Positions 50,261 to 52,867 of a stretch of 64,000 nt of DNA are shown piece by piece (the stretch's first letter is position 1; every line of letters starts with the position of its first letter). The position numbers and the translations under genes were made by a program. The notes under the pieces were generated by a model. That model did not search any database. It was not told the origin of the DNA and was given only the letters and a program-made list of their open reading frames with translations. This DNA comes from Gemmatimonadaceae bacterium (GTDB lineage: Bacteria; Gemmatimonadota; Gemmatimonadetes; Gemmatimonadales; Gemmatimonadaceae), in NCBI GenBank assembly GCA_019186945.1, contig JABAQJ010000004.1:310001-374000 (forward strand), given 5' to 3'.

Positions 50261-52446
50261 TCGCGCACGATCAGCTCGTTCGTACCCTGTTCCAGAGTCT
50301 CGATTCTCCGTTCGAGGTCTCCAATCCTGGACGCGAGCGCTGTCTTGCCGAGGAGGTCCGCCGGCTCGCCGGGTTCTGGCATGGTCGGCAACGCTACCGA
50401 GCGGCTCGGCCAGAACGTTTTCACCATCGCGAATGCAAACAGCAGCACCAGCAGCAACTGCGCCAGGAGCGTCTCCACGCTCGGGAAGATTCCCATGGCA
50501 TCGATGTGCGGCCACCCAGGCAGGACCGTAATGGAAACGACATTCCCTTCCTGCAACTCGCGGATGCCTTTCCCTGCGAAGACGAAAGCCAGGTAGTAGA
50601 GGAGCGCGCTGGTTACGGCGAAGAACGGACGGAGCGGGATGCGGAGACCGTAGCGATAGAAGAGCACGAAGATGACGGCGAGCGCTATCGCGCCAACTCC
50701 GATGCCTAACCAGATCGCACCGATGGACGCGCTACCCTCCTGGAAGAGCGCCTGGTAAAACAGCGCCGTTTCTGCTCCCTCGCGGTACACGGCGAGGAAG
50801 GCGACGAACGCGAGTGCCGCACCGCCTCCCTTCTGCAGCGCGTCGTTCACCTTCTCCTTGATGAACGCCTGCCACTTCGCCGCCTCCACCTTCGAAATCA
50901 GCCAGTAGCTGACCGAGAACAGCACGGCGACCGCAACCAGCATCGTGACGCCTTCGATGATCTCTCCGCTCGCCGGTACTGCGGCCAGCAGCGTAGACAA
51001 CGCTACCGCCGTCAGCGCGCTGGCGCCTAACGCACCGGCCACTCCCACCCAGATCGAGCGTAATCGTTCGCGATGTCCCGTCTTGATGAGGAACGCGACG
51101 ATCGCACCGATCACCAGGATCGCCTCGAATCCCTCGCGGACGATGATCAGAAGCGACTGGAGAAAGACGCCCCATGCACCGTCCGCCGGCCGGGTCAGCT
51201 CGACCATGGCCGGCATCCCTGCCTCGATCGCGTTGCGCGATCTCTCTGCCTCACGAATGGAACCCGACTTCAGCGCGCCCTTGAAGTCGGCGAAGTGGCG
51301 CTCCATCGCGCCCACCTTCCCTGGATTCTTCGCGCGCGCCGGCGTCTCCAGTGGCTCGAACGCGATGTAGGCATCGAACGCCAGGTCTCCGGCTTCATCC
51401 TTCTTGCCCAGGCGGGCAAAGGCGATCGCTTCGTCCAGGATCGCCACGACGCGCTTCCCAACCGCGCTTGCCGATTCGCCGGCCGCGCCGCCGGACGCCA
51501 CCGTCTGCGGCGTGTCCTCTAGCGCCAACATCCGGACATGACCCACCAGGCGATCGATATCCCCGGCCGACAGATCTCGTCCAGGCGGCATCGCCGTCCC
51601 CGCGATTCCCTGCTGGATGGCCGTCGCGAGCTGCGCGTCACTCTGGTCTGCCTGCCATGCGAACGACGACAGCTCCACCGGGAGCTTGGCAAGCGAGGCG
51701 CTCATCGTGCCGTCCGACCCTCCCTTCGCACCATGACATGAGGCGCAACGCTGGATATACAGTCCTTCGCCTTCCGCGGCGGCTCCCTGCCGGCGCATCG
51801 TCTGCAGATACCAGATCACGTCCCATCGCTGGTCCGGCGTCAGTTCGTTTCCGAAGCCGACCATCGGTGTCCCGGCAATGCCGACCGACAGTATCCGATA
51901 GAGAATCGCCGGTGTGCGATCGTGCATGGCGGCCGCATCGCCTAACGCGGACGGTCTCGGATCGAGCGTCGCCGCCAGCGGACCGTCTCCTTTTCCTGTG
52001 GCGCCGTGGCATGAGGCGCACACTCGCGCGTACACGGCCTGTCCCGCCGCCAGGTCGATCGCTCGCGTCGGCAGATCCAGTGCGGCATCTGCTCCCAACA
52101 GCTGCACGAACCGTCCGTGCCAGGACCCGAGGCGATCCGGCGGATCGCGCCTCTCCATCGCTGCCGCCAGCGAATCGAGCGCTACACGAGCGCTATCGGA
52201 TCGCGCGCCGCTCAATCGAGCCGCAGCTTCGCGTGCATCGGCGAGGAAGCTGACGGCCTCGTCGTACTCCTGCTGCGAGACCAGCTTCCCGGTACCGTCC
52301 ACACCTTTGGCGTACTCTTCGACGGCGACGCCGACGATGTTCGCGATTCGTTTAGCCGGCCGTTCCTGTGAACGAACCGGGGCAGCGCTCGACACGAAGG
52401 CGAGCGCCGCCAGGAAATGATAGATGATAATGGTTCTCAAACGCAT
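50257..52446 (-). CDS. Cytochrome c-fused FTR1-family iron permease
   Basis: A 729-residue protein. ATG 52446 gives a normal signal peptide (MRLRTIIIYHFLAALAF); an upstream ATG at 52497 would overlap acpS and bury the signal. The periplasmic half carries two c-type heme sites, CASCH at about 143-147 and 234-238. The C-terminal half (about 425-690) has roughly seven membrane helices with the two FTR1 iron motifs, REGFE (437-441) and REGAE (555-559), and ends in a short coiled coil (LERRIETLEQG). In FTR1/EfeU systems iron is oxidised before passage; the fused hemes could take those electrons. A near-consensus Fur box overlaps codons 3-8. Confidence 0.93.
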   Translation of the reverse strand: MRLRTIIIYHFLAALAFVSSAAPVRSQERPAKRIANIVGVAVEEYAKGVDGTGKLVSQQEYDEAVSFLADAREAAARLSGARSDSARVALDSLAAAMERRDPPDRLGSWHGRFVQLLGADAALDLPTRAIDLAAGQAVYARVCASCHGATGKGDGPLAATLDPRPSALGDAAAMHDRTPAILYRILSVGIAGTPMVGFGNELTPDQRWDVIWYLQTMRRQGAAAEGEGLYIQRCASCHGAKGGSDGTMSASLAKLPVELSSFAWQADQSDAQLATAIQQGIAGTAMPPGRDLSAGDIDRLVGHVRMLALEDTPQTVASGGAAGESASAVGKRVVAILDEAIAFARLGKKDEAGDLAFDAYIAFEPLETPARAKNPGKVGAMERHFADFKGALKSGSIREAERSRNAIEAGMPAMVELTRPADGAWGVFLQSLLIIVREGFEAILVIGAIVAFLIKTGHRERLRSIWVGVAGALGASALTAVALSTLLAAVPASGEIIEGVTMLVAVAVLFSVSYWLISKVEAAKWQAFIKEKVNDALQKGGGAALAFVAFLAVYREGAETALFYQALFQEGSASIGAIWLGIGVGAIALAVIFVLFYRYGLRIPLRPFFAVTSALLYYLAFVFAGKGIRELQEGNVVSITVLPGWPHIDAMGIFPSVETLLAQLLLVLLFAFAMVKTFWPSRSVALPTMPEPGEPADLLGKTALASRIGDLERRIETLEQGTNELIVRD
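52425..52439 (-). promoter_or_regulatory. Fur box overlapping the start of the iron-permease gene
   Basis: On the minus strand the sequence is TGAGAACCATTATCA, matching the 7-1-7 Fur consensus TGATAATnATTATCA at 12 of 14 defined positions. It lies inside codons 3-8, just after a probable -10 box, where a bound repressor would block initiation. Its AT content is far above the surrounding sequence and it uses the rare Arg codon AGA. Confidence 0.65.
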
Positions 52447-52454
52447 CCCGAGTG

Positions 52455-52460
52455 AATCTA
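52455..52460 (-). promoter_or_regulatory. Probable -10 box of the iron-permease gene
   Basis: TAGATT on the minus strand, 8 nt before ATG 52446, in the 34-bp gap after acpS. This gives the gene its own near-leaderless transcript in addition to read-through from acpS. The -35 position (TAGCCG) is weak. Confidence 0.4.
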
Positions 52461-52480
52461 TCGGACTGAATCGATCTCGG

Positions 52481-52867
52481 CTAGACGGACGCTTCAAGTA
52501 CCACGACCGCTGCCGCGTTTGAATCGGTGTGCGACAGCGAGCAATGGCACTTGGTCACACCAAGCTCGCGTGCCCGATCCGCGGCGCGGCCGTGGAATGC
52601 GACGCTCGGACGGCCCAGATCGTCGCGTGTGACTTCGATCTCGGACCACCCGATCGCCCGTGCTCCGGCGGTCCCGGACAGTGCCTTGAACGCTGCTTCC
52701 TTCGCTGCCAGTCGTACCGCGAAGTGCAGGGCCGGCCTCGCCATGCTCAACGCATACGCCCGCTCACTACTCGTGAAGAGCCGTTCGAGCAGACGCTTCC
52801 CGTGGGACTCGATCATCCGCTGGACGCGGGCGACGTCGACCAGGTCGATGCCAACGCCCAGAATCAT
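52481..52867 (-). CDS. acpS: Holo-[acyl-carrier-protein] synthase
   Basis: A 128-residue phosphopantetheinyl transferase that activates ACP from CoA. It begins MILGVGIDLVDVARV with magnesium ligand Asp8, and has the second site in RLAAKEAAFKAL (Glu57), plus the C-terminal CSLSHTDSNAAAVVV. Length is typical. Its ATG overlaps the stop of the unknown 271-residue gene (ATGA at 52867-52864), so it belongs to a coupled minus-strand series that starts with the DMT transporter. Confidence 0.96.
   Translation of the reverse strand: MILGVGIDLVDVARVQRMIESHGKRLLERLFTSSERAYALSMARPALHFAVRLAAKEAAFKALSGTAGARAIGWSEIEVTRDDLGRPSVAFHGRAADRARELGVTKCHCSLSHTDSNAAAVVVLEASV

Follow-up and report, generated by a model that had tools for sequence, protein, structure and literature searches.

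A putative Fur operator within the first codons of an apparently leaderless iron permease gene in Gemmatimonadaceae

Introduction

When an mRNA begins at its start codon, the usual position of an operator, just downstream of the transcription start, falls within the coding sequence. Can a stretch of DNA in that position be kept as a repressor site while it is also read as the N-terminus of a protein? The question is raised by an iron permease gene of a Gemmatimonadaceae bacterium, for which an original prediction, made from the letters of the sequence, had placed a Fur box inside the first codons. We followed up this prediction in the window, by which we mean the whole 64,000-nucleotide stretch of DNA that was analysed, and in the genomes of relatives from the same family and order.

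Results

The permease gene appears to be leaderless and carries a putative Fur box in codons 3 to 8

Pfam identifies the gene as a cytochrome c/FTR1 iron permease: a signal-peptide-like stretch at the N-terminus is followed by two cytochrome c domains (Cytochrome_CBB3, E = 9.3e-23; Cytochrom_C, E = 2.2e-22) and then by a C-terminal FTR1 permease domain (E = 6.5e-30). The acpS-like gene on the same strand ends 34 nt ahead of the permease ATG, and the permease promoter lies inside this gap (Table 1). No Shine-Dalgarno-like motif was found ahead of the permease ATG, and the -10 element is too near the start codon to leave a 5' UTR with a ribosome site. From the -10 and the short gap that separates it from the ATG, transcription is predicted to start at the A of the ATG or 1 to 3 nt before it, and the permease mRNA appears to be leaderless or nearly so. 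The spacing between -10 and ATG is 8 to 9 nt in most Gemmatimonadaceae orthologues that have the dyad around the -10 described below. Across the window, TANNNT motifs occurred 6 to 11 nt before 5 of 139 start-region ATG or GTG codons and before 9 of 489 internal ones, numbers too small to show anything beyond the presence of such a motif at the permease.

Table 1. Features of the permease start region, in window coordinates
Feature	Coordinates	Strand	Evidence
Cytochrome c/FTR1 iron permease gene, 729 aa	50257..52446	minus	ORF and Pfam
Putative Fur box TGAGAACCATTATCA (7-1-7)	52425..52439	minus	consensus match, orthologue conservation, co-occurrence with Fur
Dyad CCGATAGATTCACTCGG, 17 bp, form CCGATANNTTNNNTCGG, surrounding the -10; may be a second operator or an extended promoter	52448..52464	minus	orthologue counts
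-10 element TAGATT, 8 nt before the ATG	52455..52460	minus	sequence; spacing kept in orthologues
acpS-like gene, upstream of the permease	52481..52867	minus	Pfam ACPS, 2e-19

On the minus strand the start region reads CCGATAGATTCACTCGG G ATG CGT TTG AGA ACC ATT ATC ATC TAT CAT, or more fully TCCGATAGATTCACTCGGGATGCGTTTGAGAACCATTATCATCTATCATTTC. The box is a 15-mer that begins 7 nt past the A of the ATG (52446-52444), 15 nt downstream of TAGATT, and reaches from base 2 of codon 3 to base 1 of codon 8; codons 3 to 8 encode LRTIII. It agrees with the consensus TGATAATNATTATCA at 12 of 14 positions and with the local form TGAKAAYNRTTMTCA at all 14. Re-reading the minus strand thus confirmed the original prediction of a 12/14 box inside these codons after TAGATT. 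The AGA codon had also been called rare, and it accounts for 1.3% of Arg codons in the long ORFs of the window.

A single site is weak evidence, and comparison argues against chance

Taken alone, this single site is weak evidence: no other place in the window matches the consensus with at most three mismatches, but one such match was also reached in 17 of 100 window shuffles. Genome-wide statements here rest on pattern and profile searches, by which the organism's own 3.95-Mb genome has no exact TGAKAAYNRTTMTCA site apart from the permease box; one further site departs from the pattern at a single position, and with up to one mismatch allowed the reversed-pattern control likewise gave 1. We set this further site (L035) aside, as it lies inside a coding sequence, MRKSRAATVRNRAQRSALRTALKKATG, which by eye we take to resemble ribosomal protein S20. 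At exact stringency, no site at a feoA or TonB gene was found in the own genome. This genome may have a Fur regulon of very few genes, or one that relies on sites matching less closely.

Could an AT-rich stretch imposed by an Ile-rich signal peptide simply mimic a Fur box? Signal peptides favour ATT/ATC and CTC codons, and the shuffles above match the consensus often enough at up to three mismatches to raise the question. When LRTIII was coded with random synonyms at local codon usage, however, a 14/14 site arose in 0.1% of draws; moreover, orthologues from two or three families share the exact palindrome, which is also found ahead of other iron genes, with a reversed control of 0, and the site is lost along with Fur, as detailed below. 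We find chance scarcely credible: judged by comparison among genomes, the recurrence of the site at the same place in orthologues rules it out, and conservation together with co-occurrence with Fur already refutes it.

The box recurs at orthologous starts in one reading phase

We read 108 orthologue start regions from relatives within the family and the order. The box scored 13 or 14 of 14 in 29 of them (including G033 and G183, the G183 site lying 265 nt upstream of the anchor), against a peak of 7 to 10 for background or unrelated starts. Partly decayed sites scoring 11 to 12 lie between these classes, and the decayed sites of G139, G171, G065 and G067 all keep the same distance, 89 nt, from the conserved domain. 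Among the 14/14 sites of the first scan, 20 of 20 share one phase, at 77 to 185 nt from the conserved domain. The phase is broken where the coding start seems to have shifted downstream (G025, 250 nt; G183, 265 nt), and in G045, one of the 20, a stop follows the box, so that the box is no longer translated from there.

The favoured phase of the palindrome TTGAGAAYNRTTCTCA is xTG-AGA-AYN-RTT-CTC, encoding (Leu/Met/Val)-Arg-(Thr/Ile/Met)-(Ile/Val)-Leu, and translated boxes are almost always read in it. One of the other phases contains the stop TGA and the other reads GAG-AAY-NRT-TCT-CA, with polar residues; only the favoured phase both avoids TGA and gives Arg followed by hydrophobic residues. 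The palindrome would be tolerated in coding sequence because this one phase encodes a fair signal-peptide start, charged and then hydrophobic. The xTG can itself be a start codon (ATG in G017, G032, G135 and G136), and where the middle of the box reads AATG, the start can lie at the box centre (for example in G037, G039, G055, G056 and G058); we infer which codon serves as start in box-containing orthologues. Other families of the order have their -10 further upstream, and there the ATG probably coincides with the box centre. The original prediction had held that in a leaderless gene the coding sequence is the only place for a downstream operator, which stands for the leaderless members and does not extend to these other families.

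The box does not belong to every version of the protein: most Fur-less lineages lack it. As a separate observation, G131 (L290) and G130 (L291) have, behind the same promoter, an FTR1 gene that lacks the cytochrome domains and is short, at about 272 aa; G131 retains an exact Fur box immediately ahead of the ATG, the picture that a deletion of the gene's 5' part would leave.

Codon choice follows the box

Among in-frame sites scoring at least 13, Arg is AGA in 21 of 21 cases (1.6% elsewhere in these genes) and the Ile before CTC is ATT in 17 of 17 (15% elsewhere in these genes), counts that are partly conditioned on the box itself. A comparison not conditioned on the box starts from the peptide: 22 orthologues have the N-terminus [LMV][RK][TIMVSA][IVL][LIV], and 20 of these use box codons, scoring 13 to 14 of 14. 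The two exceptions, G027 (TTG CGA GTC CTG ATC) and G050 (CTG AGA ACC GTC CTG), are both without detected Fur. The original prediction had named, as the outcome that would count against it, orthologues in which the same residues are encoded by GC-rich synonyms; with 20 of 22 peptide-matched orthologues box-coded, it came through this test. These counts support the view that codon choice, not residues alone, follows the box.

The same palindrome precedes other iron genes

The exact palindrome TGAGAAYNRTTCTCA occurs 21 times in 59 relatives, with none for the reversed control, and 11 of the 21 sites are at FTR1 gene starts. The other ten precede feoA (5), TonB-dependent receptor (2), HmuY (1), PepSY-TM (1) and cytochrome c oxidase subunit II (COX2; 1) genes; we take L075 and L292 to be feoA by eye from their translations. 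Extending the search to 179 genomes of the family gave 84 sites, again with a reversed control of 0. The box is thus found before other iron genes of the group in the relatives, but not in the own genome with its single site.

This distribution also bears on a control at the RNA level, in which a 5' hairpin would govern translation of the mRNA. The perfect palindromes of G002 and G017 do fold near the start codon, with 6 bp and about -5 to -6 kcal/mol. The window version, however, folds to 0 kcal/mol with no structure, because its half-sites TGAGAAC and TGATAAT differ while each is a good Fur half-site; no fold is clearly beyond those of shuffles, and before feoA and TonB genes the same DNA site is mostly not at the start codon. 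We consider an RNA hairpin very improbable.

The site co-occurs with a Fur-family protein

The own genome encodes one Fur-family protein (PF01475, E = 8.4e-27), whose best solved relatives are Fur proteins. Among NCBIfam models it matches those for Fur and PerR alike, with none above its equivalog cut-off. PF01475 also covers PerR and Zur, and we assign the regulator as a putative Fur by similarity only. Were the site bound instead by another Fur-family repressor, PerR- or Zur-like, the signal would be peroxide or zinc. The match to both the Fur and the PerR models leaves room for this, as does the similarity of the boxes of family members. Against it, the sites precede iron genes (FTR1, feoA, HmuY and TonB receptors), the best solved relatives are Fur, and HHEH and E, which we take to be the residues expected of Fur, as against the Asp of PerR, are retained in the aligned protein. 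Such a repressor is, in our judgement, unlikely. Within the region L001 (G000:C4:11923-15276), the single fur gene (G000:C4:13423-13776) is adjoined on the same strand by a membrane-protein gene whose product, by eye, we take to be CcdA/DsbD-like.

We counted Fur as present at a PF01475 hit of about 86 bits or more and the site as present at a score of at least 13 of 14. Among FTR1 genomes, 27 had both, 70 neither, 2 the site only and 9 Fur only (Fisher p = 1.4e-15). As related genomes are not independent, we built a tree of the FTR1 protein without its signal peptide. The tree yields 12 independent pairs with a difference in the site; of these, taken over random pairings, 7.7 show Fur differing in the same way, 0.0 in the opposite way and 4.3 no difference in Fur (median sign-test p = 0.008). 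At a site threshold of 12 the corresponding values are 6.9, 0.0 and 4.1 (p = 0.016). The site is thus lost where Fur is lost, although many of the genomes are drafts and some missing Fur hits may be assembly gaps. Across the family, the exact site anywhere in the genome and Fur gave counts of 57 for both, 7 for site only, 37 for Fur only and 78 for neither.

Some genomes depart from this pattern. Among those with a strong Fur hit, the permease of some has no site (G074, G078, G082 and G105) and that of others a degenerate one (G042, G044, G139, G054 and G047); in two more there is a site without a strong Fur hit (G184 and G159, drafts that are 74% and 87% complete). A strong Fur hit is repeatedly absent across Gemmatimonadaceae genera that keep the permease (g5, g13, g14, g17, g20 and g30).

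From what is observed here, namely the site and its conservation, the reading phase and the codons used, the link to iron genes and the co-occurrence with Fur, we infer Fur binding, iron-dependent repression and the leaderless start, and consider it highly probable that TGAGAACCATTATCA is a genuine Fur operator inside the start of an apparently leaderless permease gene, acting as an iron-dependent off-switch. The original prediction that the box doubles as signal-peptide codons and operator is, as a reading of the sequences, well supported.

A second conserved dyad surrounds the -10

The form CCGATANNTTNNNTCGG is present at 11 to 12 of its 12 specified bases in 63 of 107 orthologue starts, all of them in Gemmatimonadaceae and most without Fur. 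Exact matches in 37 genomes number 11, of which 9 are at the permease gene, and the control gave 1; the dyad is nearly specific to this gene. Because CCGATANNTTNNNTCGG precedes the predicted transcript start, any action that it has would be at the level of DNA. It may serve a different regulator as operator, or be a promoter that is unusually well conserved. Its spacing resembles that of Rrf2/IscR-type sites.

A variant dyad, CCGAGTATTATACTCGG or close to it, stands at the same place in G075 (L109), G085 (L116) and G087 (L117), of genus g19, and in G159 (L119); in dyads of this type both arms differ together from the CCGATA form. We also considered the CCGATA dyad as a marker of the iron regulon and rejected it, as the second copy in the own genome (L187) precedes a gene for a WtpA-like tungstate-binding protein.

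A broader proposal joins the two sites: the DNA site would have shaped the protein, with the Fur palindrome dictating the first signal-peptide residues in one phase only, and a second operator at the -10 (CCGATANNTTNNNTCGG) would have stayed in charge of the permease in lineages that lost Fur. We put this forward tentatively, giving it slightly less than an even chance.

Discussion

If TGAGAACCATTATCA is a Fur operator, a simple switch can be proposed. Transcription from the TAGATT -10 would yield a leaderless or nearly leaderless mRNA; with sufficient iron, Fe(II)-Fur would occupy about +7 to +23 and stand in the way of RNA polymerase, and when iron is scarce Fur would be released and the permease made. 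The box itself would span about +8 to +22 of the transcript region, where a bound repressor can hinder the polymerase. The site resembles the 7-1-7 Fur operators of iron-uptake genes in its two inverted 7-bp half-sites around one base, and in its placement before iron-uptake genes, next to the -10, in genomes that encode Fur. It differs in that the box here is in translated signal-peptide codons, where it appears to dictate residues and rare codons, and in that a likely start codon occupies the box centre in other families of the order. The permease shares the FTR1 domain with EfeU/FTR1 permeases, but here that domain is fused behind two cytochrome c domains, and the protein scores 129.6 bits against a curated EfeU cut-off of 255.

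Related arrangements are known from Corynebacterium. In C. diphtheriae, 20% of genes are leaderless, and the sites of DtxR-repressed genes either overlap with the -10 or are found downstream of the TSS (PMC5784534). The likeness to the present case is that of iron-dependent repressor sites at or after the promoter where leaderless mRNAs are common; the repressor, however, belongs to another family, and the cited passages of PMC5784534 describe no codon-conserved operator. In C. glutamicum, according to the cited passages of PMC2823685, a Fur-family repressor, Zur, acts on leaderless genes whose TSS is the A of the ATG, but its motifs overlap the core promoter, not coding sequence.

Fur operators are well known; what appears to be new is that an operator is kept in the form of signal-peptide codons and disappears along with its regulator. 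In the open-licence literature screened by title, abstract and term counts we found no description of an operator conserved in this way and no Fur boxes with leaderless coding starts, and by title and abstract nothing relevant on Fur in Gemmatimonas.

This would be a clear example from nature of a single stretch of bacterial DNA serving two codes, as a repressor site and as a signal peptide, and it comes with a rare control: where relatives have lost the repressor, the site has gone too, and in most cases its codons. The case implies that what looks like a protein or translation signal near a leaderless start, be it signal-peptide residues or rare codons, can instead belong to an operator, and that in leaderless genomes such operators will escape any promoter scan from which coding DNA is left out. 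In genomes that lack Fur, the second dyad points to a possible further regulator of iron uptake.
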